Below, piece by piece: positions 43,653 to 51,020 of a DNA stretch of 64,000 bases. The notes beneath the pieces are model-generated. The model was not told the DNA's origin and searched no databases. It saw nothing but the letters and a program-made list of their open reading frames with translations. A program made the position numbers and the translations under genes. Each line of letters begins with the position of its first letter. The first letter of the stretch is position 1. Source of the DNA: Haloprofundus salilacus (GTDB lineage Archaea; Halobacteriota; Halobacteria; Halobacteriales; Haloferacaceae); assembly GCF_020150815.1 (NCBI RefSeq), contig NZ_CP083723.1:1302001-1366000 (forward strand). Reading direction: 5' to 3'.

Positions 43653-43871
43653 TGTTCCGGCGCGGCGTCGCAGGCTCCGGCGAGCCACGGGTGTACCACT
43701 CGGCGACGAACCGTGCGCCCGGGACAGCTTGCGTTCCCACCTCGCTCCGCGGGGTCTGGACACCATCCCGCCACGGGGTCCGAGCACCCTCCCGTGCGAG
43801 AGCGACTCGTCCGGGCAACGTTTGCACGGCACGAAAGGGTTTTTACCGACCGGCGATAGCAGGTGAACGAG
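43653..43871. promoter_or_regulatory. leuA-ilvB spacer with promoter for the ilvB leader transcript
   Basis: 219 GC-rich bases without a supported gene. At its right end TTTTTACC (43840-43847) lies 28 bases before the ATG at 43872, the distance expected for a leaderless start at the candidate leader peptide. Confidence 0.5.
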
Positions 43872-43976
43872 ATGCGACAGTCAGTCACGCGCCGCATGTC
43901 CGCGACGGCCCCCGAGCCGTCGCCCCGCGGCGACAGCACTGTCGTCCGGTCGCTCATTATTGTAGGGGCCGCCTAG
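43872..43976 (+). CDS. Candidate ilvB operon leader peptide
   Basis: 34-residue open frame from ATG 43872 to TAG 43974. It ends STVVRSLIIVGAA, with six Val/Leu/Ile residues in its last 13, the end products of the ilvBNC-leuCDB genes that follow. A TTTTTACC box 28 bases upstream would start the mRNA at or near the ATG. Three small hairpins lie in it, the last (GGGGC/GCCCC, 43965-43980) spanning the stop codon. ilvB begins 157 bases downstream, so its mRNA has an untypically long 262-base leader. By analogy with bacterial ilvB and ilvL leaders, ribosome stalling at scarce branched-chain tRNAs could control ilvB. Not an annotated archaeal system that I know of. Confidence 0.55.
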   Translation: MRQSVTRRMSATAPEPSPRGDSTVVRSLIIVGAA

Positions 43977-44133
43977 CCCCTCACCACCCCCTCTTCCGAC
44001 CCCGTTTCGCACCGTTTTCGAGAAGGAGCCGCGCGGTCACCGCGTGCGCTCCGCGACACCGAGCCACACGCACACCACCGATGCGACCGTACCGACCACC
44101 CACACACGACCGAGACCGAAGAGGAAGCACAGC
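43977..44133. promoter_or_regulatory. Candidate attenuator/5' leader between leader peptide and ilvB
   Basis: Pyrimidine-rich after the leader stop (CCCCTCACCACCCCC, CCGTTTCGCACCGTTTTCG), then a 13-base dyad CGCGGT-C-ACCGCG at 44032-44044. No TATA-like box lies at the distance needed for a separate leaderless ilvB transcript, so ilvB is probably read from the upstream promoter. Confidence 0.4.
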
Positions 44134-45894
44134 ATGAGCGAACAACAGACCGCCGCGACGACCGACGAGACGACGGACGCGGCGACGGAGACCGACGGGA
44201 AACGGACGCCGGTCACCACCGGCGCGTCGTCGGTCGTTCGCGCGCTCGAAAACGCGGGCGTCGAAGCCGCGTTCGGCGTGCAGGGCGGGGCCATCATGCC
44301 CATCTACGACGCGCTGTACGACTCCGACATCCACCACGTAACGATGGCCCACGAACAGGGGGCGGCGCACGCCGCCGACGCCTATGGCGTCGTCCGGGGC
44401 GACCCCGGCGTCTGTCTGGCCACGTCAGGCCCAGGCGCGACGAACCTCGTCACCGGTATCGCCGACGCCGACATGGATTCGGACGCCATGCTCGCGCTGA
44501 CGGGACAGGTCCCGTCGACGATGGTCGGCTCCGACGCGTTCCAGGAGACCGACACCACCGGCGTCACCGCGCCCATCACGAAGCACAACTACTTCGCGAG
44601 CGACGCCGACACCGTCGGCGACACGGTGGGCGAGGCGTTCGCGCTCGCCGCGGAGGGACGACCGGGACCGACGCTGGTCGACCTGCCGAAGGACACGACA
44701 ATGGCCGAGACTGATCGCGAACCCGGTCCGGCCAAACCCCCCGAGACGACGACGCCGCCGACGGACGCCGAGATTGAATCGGTGAAGACGGCCGCCCGCG
44801 CCATCGAGCGCGCGGAGAAACCGTTGCTGCTGTTCGGCGGCGGCGTCGTCAAGGCGAATGCGACCGAAGAAGCCCGAGCGTTTGCCGTCGACAACGGCAT
44901 TCCCGTCGTCACGACGATGCCCGCCATCGGGTCGATGCCCGAGGACCACGAGCTCTGCCTGTCGTGGGCAGGGATGCACGGCACCGGTTACGCGAACATG
45001 GCGGTCACGCACTGCGACCTGCTCGTCGCCGTCGGCTGCCGGTTCGACGACCGACTCACCGGCGGCGTCGACACCTTCGCCCCCGAGGCCGAGGTCGTCC
45101 ACGTCGACGTCGACGAGGCCGAAATCTCGAAGAACGTCCACGCGGACTACCCGGTCGTCGGCGACGCGAAAGCCGTCCTCGAACAGTTTGCCGACGAAGT
45201 CGGCCAGTCGCCGGACGCCCGCGAGTGGCGACAGCAGTGTCAGACGTGGAAGGAGGAGTACCCGCTGGCGTACGAGACGCCCGAAGACAAACCGCTGAAA
45301 CCGCAGTTCGTCGTCGAGGCGCTCGACGAGGCGACCCCCGACGACACCATCGTCACCACGGGCGTCGGCCAGCACCAGATGTGGGCCGCGCAGTTCTGGA
45401 CGTTCACGAACCCGCGGACGTGGGTCTCCTCGCACGGTCTCGGCACGATGGGCTACGGTCTCCCCGCGGCCATCGGCGCGAAACTCGCCGCGCCGGACAG
45501 AGACGTGGTCTGCGTCGACGGCGACGGCTCCTTTTTGATGACGATTCAGGAGCTGTCGGTCGCCGTCCGCGAGGAACTCGACATCACCGTCGCCGTCCTG
45601 AACAACGAGTACATCGGGATGGTCCGGCAGTGGCAGGACGCCTTCTTCGACGGCCGCCGGATGGCCGCCGAGTACGACTGGTGTCCCGACTTCGCCAAAC
45701 TCGCGGAGGCGTTCGGCGCGCGCGGCTTCAGCGCCGAGAACTACGACGAGGCCGCCGACGCCATCGAGGGCGCGCTGGCCTACAACGGGCCGTCTGTGAT
45801 CGACTTCCGAATCGATCCGACGGAGAACGTCTACCCGATGGTCGCAAGCGGCGGCGCAAACGGCAAGTTCGCCCTCTCGGAGGACCAGCTATGA
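44134..45894 (+). CDS. ilvB: Acetolactate synthase large subunit
   Basis: 586 residues. TPP/FAD enzyme making acetolactate or acetohydroxybutyrate, first common step of valine, leucine and isoleucine synthesis. The TPP-activating Glu is in TMAHEQGAAHAADAYG, the FAD region in the middle domain (GGVVKANATEEAR ... GMHGTGYANMAV) and the TPP-binding GDGSFLMTIQEL ... NNEYIGMVRQWQ in the C-terminal third. The acidic N-terminal ~30 residues (MSEQQTAATTDETTDAATETDG) are a haloarchaeal extension. Start at 44134; ilvN overlaps its stop. Confidence 0.97.
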   Translation: MSEQQTAATTDETTDAATETDGKRTPVTTGASSVVRALENAGVEAAFGVQGGAIMPIYDALYDSDIHHVTMAHEQGAAHAADAYGVVRGDPGVCLATSGPGATNLVTGIADADMDSDAMLALTGQVPSTMVGSDAFQETDTTGVTAPITKHNYFASDADTVGDTVGEAFALAAEGRPGPTLVDLPKDTTMAETDREPGPAKPPETTTPPTDAEIESVKTAARAIERAEKPLLLFGGGVVKANATEEARAFAVDNGIPVVTTMPAIGSMPEDHELCLSWAGMHGTGYANMAVTHCDLLVAVGCRFDDRLTGGVDTFAPEAEVVHVDVDEAEISKNVHADYPVVGDAKAVLEQFADEVGQSPDAREWRQQCQTWKEEYPLAYETPEDKPLKPQFVVEALDEATPDDTIVTTGVGQHQMWAAQFWTFTNPRTWVSSHGLGTMGYGLPAAIGAKLAAPDRDVVCVDGDGSFLMTIQELSVAVREELDITVAVLNNEYIGMVRQWQDAFFDGRRMAAEYDWCPDFAKLAEAFGARGFSAENYDEAADAIEGALAYNGPSVIDFRIDPTENVYPMVASGGANGKFALSEDQL

Positions 45895-46598
45895 GCGGCG
45901 ACGAATCGGCCGACGCCCCCGGGTACGAGTTCGACGGACCCGGCATGCCGGGTCCCGCGCCCGACGAGAGACCGCACCCCGACGGTCGACGCAACGCCCA
46001 CGGCGTCCGCATCGATCCGGAGGTTGAAGCTGAACCACGCTACCGAACGGCCGTCGTCTCCGCGCTGGTCGAACACGAACCGGGCGTGCTCTCGCGCGTC
46101 TCGGGGCTATTCTCCCGGCGGCAGTTCAACATCGAGAGCCTCACCGTCGGCAAGACGACGGTCGACGGCCACGCGCGAATCACGCTCGTCGTCGAGGAGA
46201 CCGACGCCGGCATCGACCAGGTAAAAAAGCAACTGGGGAAGCTCAAACCCGTCATCCAGGTGGGCGAACTCGACGGCGACGCCGTGCGCGCCGAACTCGT
46301 CCTCCTGAAAGTACGGGGCGACGAACCCGACAAGGTCCACGCCATCACTCAGATGTACGAGGGCGAGACGCTGGACGCCGGGCCGCGAACCATCACGGTC
46401 CAGATAACGGGCGACCAGCAGAAGATAGACGACGCCGTCGACGCGTTCCGGCAGTTCGGCATCATCGAGATCGCGCGGACGGGCCAGACGGCGCTCGCCC
46501 GCGGCGACACGCCGACGACGCCCGGCGAGGAACCTGGCCACTCCACCGAACCCAAGAATTCGACGTACCGCGACGAAACCGACGCGGAAGACAACTGA
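45891..46598 (+). CDS. ilvN: Acetolactate synthase regulatory subunit
   Basis: 235 residues. ACT domain ([40 protein letters not shown], ~43-82) followed by the ALS small-subunit C-terminal domain ([17 protein letters not shown] ... [17 protein letters not shown]). Binds valine and activates IlvB in known systems. N- and C-terminal extensions are acidic and disordered-looking. Overlaps ilvB by four bases (ATGA). Confidence 0.95.
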
Positions 46599-46608
46599 CA
46601 CACCAACC

Positions 46609-47664
46609 ATGACAGACGAACTCAACGCGACGATCTACTACGACGACGACGCGGACGCAACGCACCTCGACGACAAGACGGTAGCCGTCCTCGGCTACGG
46701 CAGCCAGGGCCACGCCCACGCGCAGAACCTCGCCGACAGCGGCGTCAACGTGGTCGTCGGTCTGCGCGAGGGCTCCTCGTCCCGCGCGGTGGCGGAGGAC
46801 GACGGACTGGAGGTGGAGACGCCGGTAGAGGCGGCCGCCGCCGCCGACGTCATCTCCGTACTGGTTCCCGACACGGTCCAGCCGGCGGTGTACGAGGTCA
46901 TCGAGGACGAACTCGAACCCGGCGACACGCTCCAGTTCGCCCACGGCTTCAACATCCACTACAACCAGATTCAGCCGTCGGAGGAGATCGACGTGACGAT
47001 GGTCGCGCCGAAGTCGCCGGGCCACCTCGTCCGCCGTAACTACCAGGCCAACCAGGGGACGCCGGGTCTCGTCGCGGTCTACCAGGATACGACGGGCGAG
47101 GCGAAAGGCGAGGCGCTGGCGTACGCGAAAGCCATCGGTTGCACGCGCGCGGGCGTCGTCGAGACGACGTTCCGCGAGGAGACCGAAACCGACCTGTTCG
47201 GCGAGCAGGCCGTCCTCTGCGGCGGCGTCACCTCGCTCGTGAAGACGGGCTACGAGACGCTTGTCGACGCGGGCTACAGCCCCGAGATGGCGTACTTCGA
47301 GTGCCTGAACGAGCTGAAACTCATCGTCGACCTCATGTACGAAGGTGGGCTCGGCGGAATGTGGGACTCGGTCTCCGACACCGCCGAGTTCGGCGGACTG
47401 ACCCGCGGCGACGCGATCGTCGACGACCACGCCCGCGAGCGGATGGAGGAGGTGCTCGAACAGGTCCAGAACGGCACGTTCGCCCGCGAGTGGATCGTCG
47501 AGAACCAGGCCGGACGGCCGAGCTACCAGCAACTGCGCGAGGCCGAGAAGAGCCACGACATCGAGGCGGTCGGCGAGGAGCTTCGGGGCCTGTTCGCGTG
47601 GGCGGAGGAATCGAGCGAGACGACCGACGAGGACGAAGACGAGAAATCGCGGGTGAAAGCATGA
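46609..47664 (+). CDS. ilvC: Ketol-acid reductoisomerase
   Basis: 351 residues, class I length. Converts acetolactate to 2,3-dihydroxyisovalerate using NADPH. The Rossmann motif is [17 protein letters not shown] (~26-42); the metal and catalytic region includes [17 protein letters not shown] and [19 protein letters not shown]. The C-terminus has an acidic tail ([14 protein letters not shown]). Starts 10 bases after ilvN; its stop overlaps the next small gene. Confidence 0.96.
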
Positions 47665-47963
47665 GCGAACGAAACCGACGAGACCGACGAGAAGTGAACG
47701 ACGAAGACGAGAAAACGACGATGGCCGCCGTGAGCCACACCCATCCGCACACGAGTGAGACGTTCGGCGCGGTGTTCCAGCGCGGGCCGGCGATGGCCGA
47801 CGGCGGTGAGCGAAGTGAGCGCGCCCGACGCGGAACGATGCGCGACGTGGACCACACGCCCCGACACGGTGAGGACGTGTCGGAAGTGTGGGCGCGCGGG
47901 GGCAACGAACGGCAAGCAGTACGCGACGATAGAGAGAGTACGGGTGCATCGGTAGATGAGTGA
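47661..47963 (+). CDS. Small conserved-position hypothetical protein between ilvC and leuC
   Basis: 100 residues, not recognised. Very charged, no membrane segment. Two similar short motifs occur: [11 protein letters not shown] and [11 protein letters not shown], each preceded by a His-containing run ([15 protein letters not shown]). The ATG overlaps the ilvC stop (ATGA) and the end overlaps leuC by eight bases, so it is embedded in the operon and likely translated. Haloferax also has a small hypothetical gene at this place. Confidence 0.6.
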
Positions 47964-49377
47964 GGGAACGCTGTACGACGAGGTGTGGGACCGCCACGCC
48001 ATCGCGGAGTTGCCGACCGGACAGACACAGTTGTTCGTCGGTCTCCACCTCATCCACGAGGTGACGAGTCCGCAGGCGTTCGGCATGCTGCGCGAGCGCG
48101 ACATGGAGGTCGCCTACCCCGAACTCACCCACGCGACGGTCGACCACATCGTCCCTACGGCGGATCAGTCGCGCCCGTACGGCGACGACGCCGCCGAGGA
48201 GATGATGGCCGAACTAGAGGAGAACGTCCGCGAGGCGGGTATCGACTTTTCGGACCCGACTAGCGGCAATCAGGGCATCGTCCACGTCATCGGACCGGAG
48301 CAGGGCATCACACAGCCCGGCAAGACCATCGTCTGCGGCGACAGCCACACCTCGACGCACGGCGCGTTCGGGGCGCTCGCGTTCGGCATCGGCACGAGCC
48401 AGATTCGCGACGTGCTCGCGACAGGCTGCGTCGCCATGGAGAAACAGAAGGTGCGCAAAATCGAGGTCACTGGCGAACTCGCCGAGGGCGTCGAAGCCAA
48501 GGACGTCATCCTCGAAGTCATCCGCCGACTCGGTACCGACGGCGGTGTCGGTTACGTGTACGAGTACGCCGGAGAGGCGGTCGAGCGCCTCGACATGGAG
48601 GGCCGGATGAGCATCTGCAACATGTCCATCGAAGGCGGCGCGCGCGCGGGCTACGTCAACCCCGACGAGACCACCTACGAGTGGCTCGCGGAGACCGACG
48701 AGTTCGCGGACGACCCCGAGCGATTCGAGGAACTCAAACCGTACTGGAAGTCGATTCGCTCCGACGACGATGCCGAGTACGACGACGTGGTCGTCGTCGA
48801 CGGCGACGAACTCGAACCGGTCGTCACGTGGGGCACCACCCCCGGGCAGGGCGTCGGCGTCACCCAGCCGATTCCCGCCCCCGAGGAACTCCCCGAGGAG
48901 AAGCGCGAGACCGCCAGAATGTCGCAGGAGCATATGGGCGTCGAACCCGGCGACACGATGGAAGGCTACGAGATCGACGTGGCGTTCCTCGGGTCGTGTA
49001 CGAACGCCCGACTGCCCGACCTGCGCCGCGCGGCGAAAATCGTTGAAGGACAGCAGGTTCACCCGGACGTTCGCGCGATGGTCGTCCCCGGCAGCCAGCG
49101 CGTCCAGAAGCAGGCGGAGAAGGAGGAACTCGCCGACGTATTCCGCGAGGCTGGCTTCGACTGGCGCAACGCCGGGTGTTCAATGTGTCTCGGGATGAAC
49201 GAGGACCAACTGGAGGGCGACGAAGCCTGTGCTTCCTCGTCGAACCGCAACTTCATCGGGCGACAGGGGAGCAAAGACGGCCGTACTGTCCTGATGAACC
49301 CGCAGATGGTCGCGGCAGCGGCGCTCGAAGGGAAAGTTACCGACGTGCGGAACCTCTCGGAGGTGACGACGGTATGA
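47956..49377 (+). CDS. leuC: 3-isopropylmalate dehydratase large subunit
   Basis: 473 residues, aconitase family. Isomerises 2- to 3-isopropylmalate with LeuD. The [4Fe-4S] ligands are in FLGSCTNARLPDLR (~Cys343) and NAGCSMCLGMN (~Cys404/407); substrate motifs IVCGDSHTSTHGAFGALAFGIGTSQ are near residue 125. The start at 47956 ([16 protein letters not shown]) is the family-typical N-terminus. leuD overlaps its stop. Confidence 0.96.
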   Translation: MSEGTLYDEVWDRHAIAELPTGQTQLFVGLHLIHEVTSPQAFGMLRERDMEVAYPELTHATVDHIVPTADQSRPYGDDAAEEMMAELEENVREAGIDFSDPTSGNQGIVHVIGPEQGITQPGKTIVCGDSHTSTHGAFGALAFGIGTSQIRDVLATGCVAMEKQKVRKIEVTGELAEGVEAKDVILEVIRRLGTDGGVGYVYEYAGEAVERLDMEGRMSICNMSIEGGARAGYVNPDETTYEWLAETDEFADDPERFEELKPYWKSIRSDDDAEYDDVVVVDGDELEPVVTWGTTPGQGVGVTQPIPAPEELPEEKRETARMSQEHMGVEPGDTMEGYEIDVAFLGSCTNARLPDLRRAAKIVEGQQVHPDVRAMVVPGSQRVQKQAEKEELADVFREAGFDWRNAGCSMCLGMNEDQLEGDEACASSSNRNFIGRQGSKDGRTVLMNPQMVAAAALEGKVTDVRNLSEVTTV

Positions 49378-50009
49378 GTGCAGGTGAGGAAAACGCCGAC
49401 GGACCGGCCGACACGGTCCGCCACGTCTCCGGCACCGGCGTCCCCGTCCGCGGCAACGACATCGACACCGACCAGATAATTCCGGCGCGGTTCATGAAGG
49501 TCGTCACGTTCGACGGTCTCGGCCAGTTCTCCTTTTTCGACCAGCGGTTCGGCGACGACGACGAACCCAAGGAGCACCCGTTCAACGAGGACCGCTTCCG
49601 CGACTCCTCGGTGCTGGTCGTCAACGCCAACTTCGGCTGCGGGTCCTCCCGAGAACACGCCCCGCAGGCGTTGATGCGCTGGGGTATCGACGCCCTCGTC
49701 GGCGAGTCGTTCGCCGAAATCTTCGCGGGCAACTGCCTCGCGCTCGGCATCCCGACGGTCACCGCCGACTCGGAGACCGTCGCCGACCTGCAGGCGTGGA
49801 TCGACGAGAACCCCGACGGCGACATCGACGTCAACGTCGAAAACGAGACGGTCACCTACGGCGACACCGTCGTCGACTTGGAGGTGGACGACGCCCAGCG
49901 GAAGGCGCTCGTCGAGGGCGTCTGGGACACCACCGCGCTGATGAAGTCGAACAGGAACGCGGTTCGGGAGACCGCCCAGTCGCTTCCGTACGTGGAGAGC
50001 GATGACTGA
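49374..50009 (+). CDS. leuD: 3-isopropylmalate dehydratase small subunit
   Basis: 211 residues. Swivel domain of the LeuCD complex: VPVRGNDIDTDQIIPARFMKVVTFDGLGQFSFFDQRF and NFGCGSSREHAPQALMRWGIDALVGESFAEIFAGNCL. The length fits the bacterial-type LeuD. The first ~20 residues are an acidic extension. ATG overlaps the leuC stop by four bases. Confidence 0.95.
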   Translation: MSAGEENADGPADTVRHVSGTGVPVRGNDIDTDQIIPARFMKVVTFDGLGQFSFFDQRFGDDDEPKEHPFNEDRFRDSSVLVVNANFGCGSSREHAPQALMRWGIDALVGESFAEIFAGNCLALGIPTVTADSETVADLQAWIDENPDGDIDVNVENETVTYGDTVVDLEVDDAQRKALVEGVWDTTALMKSNRNAVRETAQSLPYVESDD

Positions 50010-50042
50010 AGCGGCGAGCGCGCCGACCGAGGAGGGTCGACA

Positions 50043-51020
50043 ATGACCGACGAAATCGTCGTCATCCCCGGCGACGGCATCGGTCAGGAGGTCGTTCCGG
50101 CGGCCGTACGCGTGCTCGAGGAGGTCGGCGAGTTCGAGTTTGTCGAAGCCGAGGCGGGCGACCGGGTGAAAGAGGAGACAGGCGAGGCCCTGCCCCGAGA
50201 AACGTACGACCTCGTCGCCTCCGCGGACGCGACGCTGTTCGGCGCGGCGGGCGAGACGGCCGCGGACGTCATCCTCCCGCTTCGGAGAGCGGTCCACTCG
50301 TTCGTCAACGTCCGCCCGGCGAAGGCGTACCCCGGCGTCGACGCGCTCCGATCGGAGACGGACCTCGTCTTCCTCAGAGAGAACACCGAGGGGGTCTACG
50401 CAGGTCACGAGGACCGCCTCTCGGACGACCTATCGACGCTCACCCGAGTCGTCACCGACTCTGCGTCGAGGCGACTCGCCAAGTACGCCTGCGAGTTCGT
50501 CTCCACCGACAACCACGACGGCTTCACTGTCGCACACAAGGCGAACGTGATGCGCGAGACCGACGGCCGGTTCCGCGAGGCCGTGCTCTCGGTCGCCGAC
50601 GAGCGCGGCGTCGACACCGACGAGGTGTTGATGGACGCGTTCGCGACCCGCGTCTGTCTCGATCCGAAGCAGTTCGACGTGGTCGTTTGTCCCAACCTCG
50701 CGGGCGACGTGCTCTCGGACCTCGCGGCGGGTCTCGTCGGCGGTCTCGGCCTCCTGCCGTCAGCGAACGTCGGTCCCCAGCGCGCGCTCTTCGAACCGGT
50801 CCACGGCACCGCGCCCGACATCGCGGGTGAGGGCGTCGCCAACCCCTCAGCGACGCTCTTTTCGGCGGCGATGCTGCTCGAACACCTCGACCACGACGAA
50901 ACCGGAGCGAACGTCCGGTCGGCCGTCGAAAGCGTCCTCGAAGACGGCCCGCGGACGCCGGACCTCGGCGGCGACGCGTCTACGGAGGACGTGACGGCCG
51001 CCGTCGTCGACCGGCTCTAA
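50043..51020 (+). CDS. leuB: 3-isopropylmalate dehydrogenase
   Basis: 325 residues. NAD-dependent beta-decarboxylating dehydrogenase family: [24 protein letters not shown] at the N-terminus, [40 protein letters not shown] and the metal-binding [27 protein letters not shown], then [21 protein letters not shown]. Closes the leucine branch. Isocitrate or tartrate relatives are excluded mainly by context. Confidence 0.95.

Follow-up and report, generated by a model that had tools for sequence, protein, structure and literature searches.

The analysed window, 64,000 nucleotides (nt) of the Haloprofundus salilacus genome, carries on its forward strand an ilv–leu operon whose first gene is preceded by a short open reading frame (ORF). 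That gene, ilvB (44134–45894), the presumed target of regulation, encodes the large subunit of acetolactate synthase, recognized by its Pfam TPP enzyme N, M and C domains; downstream come ilvN, ilvC, leuC, leuD and leuB (45897–51020), and a leuA-type gene of the isopropylmalate/citramalate synthase family lies upstream of the leader and ilvB (both assignments from Pfam and ORFs). A TATA-like box, TTTTTA (43840–43845), the apparent leader promoter, stands before a 34-codon ORF (43872–43976, with its TAG at 43974–43976) whose ATG, 32 bases past the first T of the box, lies at the expected transcription start. The ORF translates as MRQSVTRRMSATAPEPSPRGDSTVVRSLIIVGAA and its 3′ codons run CTC ATT ATT GTA GGG GCC GCC TAG, among which ATT ATT GTA (Ile Ile Val; 43956–43964) are the putative control codons. 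A predicted hairpin (43961–43983) holds the stop codon in its loop and 3′ edge, a C/U-rich tract without G (43977–43997) begins inside its 3′ arm, and an unconserved, promoter-free remainder of the 5′ untranslated region (UTR; 43998–44133) leads to the ilvB ATG at 44134, 262 nt from that of the leader. This is the geometry that a sequence-only reading of the window had described—the 34-codon frame, AT box, end codons, stop-codon hairpin and distance to ilvB—and we found every part of it again.

A frame with leaderless geometry upstream of haloarchaeal ilvB

Using ilvB homologues taken from named genomes (the nearest from Haloprofundus marisrubri, 92%), we find in all 82 haloarchaeal ilvB loci that have upstream DNA an ATG followed in frame by the heptamer GTAGGGG, with no need for a looser search; by protein search, the 34-aa peptide is matched in the four other genomes of the genus at 79–82% identity. 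A model built on the 60-nt core of the leader (R1) matches 55 of 60 family genomes and 28 of 28 genera, with one match each, as well as, in a sample of the phylum, 49 haloarchaeal genomes, a second, weak match occurring in one; in all the R1 matches examined (42 genome matches and one further, making 43), ilvB adjoins downstream. Some genomes missed by R1 prove on inspection to carry the leader, including an AT-rich genome with the end RIVGAP-stop and two more ending VVVGAV-stop and AIIGRVGAP-stop; in G013, G045, G067 and G155, no leader was found at ilvB in the loci seen. Outside the haloarchaeal order, the phylum sample gave only two weak R1 matches, neither at ilvB, which we take as chance and not as instances of the element, and the covariance models of Rfam 15 returned only a spurious microRNA match, far below cut-off. 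Absence of the frame from relatives would have refuted the sequence-only reading; instead, the frame and its Ile-Val end are kept through the haloarchaeal order.

Across 79 distinct loci the A/T signal is strongest at −32 to −27 from the leader ATG, with a box score of at least 5/6 in 75 of them. In archaeal promoters such a spacing is about that expected when transcription starts at the ATG, and the leaderless promoter geometry proposed for H. salilacus is upheld across the 79 loci. We also asked how ATGs 36–170 nt upstream of the GTA codon are phased when an A/T six-mer is sought at −35 to −22: those with a perfect six-mer are in frame with the Ile-Val-Gly codons in 58 of 58 cases, and those with a box of at least 5/6 in 75 of 76 (binomial p about 1e-28 and 1e-34, respectively, against 1/3, phylogeny ignored). 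The leader ORFs take 17 different lengths, from 16 to 55 codons, and are always in frame, confirming a leader frame well beyond chance. An attenuator calls for a short ORF between promoter and operon that contains codons for the operon's products, and such an ORF, its translation inferred, is present in the 82 loci.

Every member of the 82-locus set ends in Ile-Val-Gly, then Ala or Val, then at most one residue (x) and the stop, preceded by sequence that is wholly different between genera (APIIVGV, SIRIVGAL, GLGIVGA, RSLIIVGA, VERVIIVGA); the C terminus expected to be conserved, VVRSLIIVGAA, was drawn too broadly, and the conserved core is no more than Ile-Val-Gly-(Ala/Val)-(x)-stop. The last Ile is present in 79 of 79 distinct loci and a second Ile in 54%, against about 1% Ile in the remaining leader peptide, and the nearby Val also stands out from the peptide background. 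Codon choice is equally marked: the last Ile codon is ATT in 57 of 82 loci, versus 17% of Ile codons in the window's genes, and within the invariant GTA-GGG (Val-Gly) that follows the terminal Ile codon, the Val codon is GTA in 82 of 82, versus 5% of Val codons in those genes. Of the Val, Leu and Ile cluster first pointed out at the end of the frame, Ile and Val are conserved and Leu is not. A few genomes outside the main set carry Val or Arg where the last Ile would be, so that an Ile adjoining GTA, although very common, is not universal. Two loci, L303 (near 1500–1570) and L299, with the variant ends AIIGRVGAP and VVVGAV, have this Ile replaced and retain GTAGGGG, the hairpin and Ile or Val codons nearby.

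The body of the peptide, by contrast with its end, shows no constraint: pN/pS is 0.97 over 25 close pairs, and purifying selection at the peptide level is rejected. No such selection is expected where the product of a leader peptide is discarded. The test proposed with the sequence-only reading, conservation with synonymous changes, is accordingly failed by the body and passed by the frame, the end codons and the hairpin. The freely evolving body and the unconserved Leu together indicate that it is the codons, not the peptide, that are selected.

The stop-codon hairpin and the ilvB 5′ UTR

The predicted stem pairs 43964–43969 with 43976–43981 and, past a bulge, 43961–43962 with 43982–43983. 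Hairpins that enclose the stop are predicted in 78 of the 79 full leaders and compare favourably with dinucleotide shuffles (median z −2.9; 98.7% of loci below −1.5), with the stop codon (TAG, TAA or TGA) in the loop or at its 3′ edge and GTAGGGG paired to CCCCTAC, CCCCTCAC or CCCCAC. Both loop length and the 3′ arm vary among loci, and because of the variable loop length, pair counts on a MAFFT alignment were uninformative; the loop-closing pair, formed by the bases that flank GGGG on its 3′ side and the C-run on its 5′ side, nevertheless covaries (C-G in 46 loci, U-A in 21, other in 12, two of them U-G). As attenuation would need, the hairpin begins at the Val codon directly after Ile, so that a stalled ribosome would alter it.

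GTAGGGG itself (43962–43968 in the window) never varies in the 82 loci, even at synonymous positions. Judging from the sequences, this invariance is more than pairing and coding by themselves can account for, as synonymous changes that keep the pairs seem possible; it may reflect a trans-acting factor, a need for GUA as a rare codon, or some overlapping recognition.

Beyond the C-run, G is scarce: 28 occurrences in 1343 positions (2%) over the next 17 nt, against 25% G in the remaining UTR. This G-poor tract includes a UUCCUC-like stretch, and no further conserved element was seen in the UTR. It lies where a U-run terminator would have its U-run, of which there is none 3′ of the hairpin; a missing U-run does not exclude attenuation, as archaeal termination rules differ. 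Nor was a conserved antiterminator found in the leaders, where only one conserved hairpin was seen and no alternative pairing partner.

The distance from the leader stop to ilvB is unconserved, ranging from 67 to 256 nt. None of the 79 distinct loci has a run of six A/T in the intervening UTR, and in 78 of 79 the box score at the ilvB start is at most 4, which bears out across relatives the earlier inference that ilvB has no promoter of its own. Lacking such a signal, ilvB is most likely transcribed from the leader promoter.

A Phe-rich leader before pheS

By a uniform criterion, 20 of 32 haloarchaeal genomes have, ahead of pheS, a short boxed ORF that closes in Phe-rich sequence (GFGFFFxA-stop), with ends such as GFGFFFTAA-stop, GFGFFFAR-stop and RFGVRFFFAS-stop (forward-strand examples: L160, stop at 698; L163, 681; L178, 731; L294, 718). 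The sequence makes this ORF a likely second attenuator, for Phe, and the independent presence of such a leader makes codon sensing at ilvB much more likely. In Escherichia coli, pheST is preceded by the Phe-rich leader pheM; the haloarchaeal leader is likewise Phe-rich and placed before pheS, but is leaderless and separate in sequence. In several genomes, the stop is followed downstream by a GAAACC(G) element to which the Phe-codon region seems complementary.

Scans of tRNA-synthetase, trp and his genes serve as a negative control. Before tyrS, trpS, trpE, hisG and valS/ileS/leuS they yielded one isolated boxed ORF in about 80 loci, and before trpC, or before trpE and trpS when the box criterion was dropped, isolated frames only and no conserved leader.

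A start-site study of Haloferax volcanii reports, from mapped starts, 16 upstream ORFs (uORFs) in long 5′ UTRs, including one of 26 aa before pheS, with ilvB not in the list (PMC4983044, Table 2); its accessible part treats them as genes for small proteins or as uORFs and offers no attenuation reading. The pheS leader of H. sulfurifontis, MASEPERGARASEPTTDGFGFFFLTA, is also 26 aa, a match in length to the H. volcanii report, although identity as the same ORF is unverified. The same table (entry 12) places a 23-aa uORF before the H. volcanii tryptophan–tRNA ligase gene HVO_A0127; no Trp-rich leader stands before the trpS genes scanned here.

Proposed attenuation at ilvB and its alternatives

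From features established at the level of sequence—leaderless geometry, frame, Ile/Val ends, stop hairpin, G-free tract, single copy at ilvB and the lack of an ilvB promoter—we consider it probable that the ilvB leader is a ribosome-mediated amino-acid attenuator that senses charged Ile- and Val-tRNA, its translation, stalling, switch and termination being inferred. The attenuator interpretation of the sequence-only reading is to that extent supported, with regulation, ribosome stalling and output still inferences. Transcription would start at or next to the small-ORF ATG and a ribosome would begin the leader immediately. Were Ile- or Val-tRNA short, it would stall on AUU/AUC-GUA, abutting the hairpin; given the size of ribosome footprints, when its A site holds an Ile or Val codon it would shield the 5′ arm, and the hairpin would stay open while RNA polymerase proceeds into ilvBNC–leuCDB. 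With both tRNAs plentiful, the ribosome would reach the stop and depart, the hairpin would close, and hairpin and C/U-rich tract together would lower ilvB expression, most simply by premature termination. A hairpin that can form only after Ile and Val have been read and the ribosome has gone would represent the 'off' state of a biosynthetic operon.

We count in favour of this attenuator that H. volcanii ilvB1 (HVO_1508) and ilvC mutants require Val, Leu and Ile (PMC4300041), and that in an H. volcanii reporter 59% of transcripts ended at a tested hairpin motif, S12 (PMC7237163). The tract is rejected as a C-rich site for the termination factor FttA, which prefers U-rich RNA according to a structural paper (PMC11616081). 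Against the attenuator stand the lack of expression, start-site or ribosome data for the ilvB leader, the omission of ilvB from the H. volcanii uORF table that does include pheS, the failure to find a conserved antiterminator, the absence of a U-run after the hairpin, an invariance of GTAGGGG that appears to exceed what pairing and coding demand, the lack of conserved sensing codons for Leu, which is also an operon product, and the few genomes with Val or Arg for the last Ile. That the output is transcription, with termination inferred, rather than some other step, we favour only modestly.

The same sensor might act otherwise, the leader ribosome controlling ilvB translation or mRNA stability rather than transcription, for instance by uncovering or hiding an RNase site or the start of ilvB, which we regard as possible though doubtful. 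It would suit a long UTR after the stop and a hairpin without a U-run terminator, and some genera have, ahead of ilvB, a stretch rich in purines with which the C/U tract could pair; but many genera lack that stretch, the distance to ilvB is unconserved, and pairing between the tract and the ilvB start is no better than in shuffles (median z 0.2), which leads us to reject masking of the start by the tract.

The palindrome GTAGGGG…CCCCTAC could also be a regulatory-protein site on DNA or RNA, with the ORF secondary. Its invariant first arm, fixed even at synonymous positions where compensated changes look possible, is what such a site would predict, but loop length and 3′ arm vary, the Ile codons are distinguished by what they encode (ATT or ATC), and the frame, start and stop placement are conserved without being needed by a protein site; we think it improbable. 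A single R1 match per genome also counts against it and leads us to reject a multi-site operator; an exact palindrome pattern had no match in the H. salilacus genome either, but the H. salilacus site misfits the pattern too, and the result says little. That the ORF is the gene of a small functional protein, or one of the long frames that stay open by chance in GC-rich DNA, is scarcely credible in view of a body pN/pS of about 1 for the former and, for the latter, the frame statistics and single-copy linkage to ilvB.

Leader-peptide attenuators govern the E. coli ilvB, ilvGMEDA and leu operons. The closest system that we found is the leader-peptide attenuator of Corynebacterium ilvBNC (PMC10272879, PMC11857589). 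The haloarchaeal arrangement resembles the bacterial ilv and leu attenuators in its short ORF with branched-chain codons ahead of ilvB, its hairpin beside the control codons and the ilvBNC genes downstream; unlike them, it has a leaderless start, one compact hairpin that holds the stop, no visible antiterminator, no U-run, and conservation of Ile and Val only. Ribosome-mediated attenuation was worked out in bacteria, and archaea have a eukaryote-like RNA polymerase and other termination machinery. Archaeal use of attenuation is an open question as far as the searched literature shows: no archaeal amino-acid attenuator was found in open-access papers (subscription papers and supplements were outside the scope, and a prior description is possible), and the terms attenuation and leader peptide do not occur in a review of archaeal transcription–translation coupling (PMC8116511).

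Whether haloarchaea carry a lineage-wide form of leaderless-peptide attenuation—Ile/Val at ilvB, Phe at pheS, a compact stop hairpin at ilvB and archaeal termination independent of a U-run—we judge evenly balanced; if true, this would be a first for Archaea. An attenuator would explain the long 5′ leader of ilvB in organisms where leaderless transcripts prevail (72% of mapped protein-coding transcripts; PMC4983044), and would give overlooked uORFs a likely function. With the leader conserved in the genetically tractable Haloferax, archaeal transcription–translation coupling would become directly testable.
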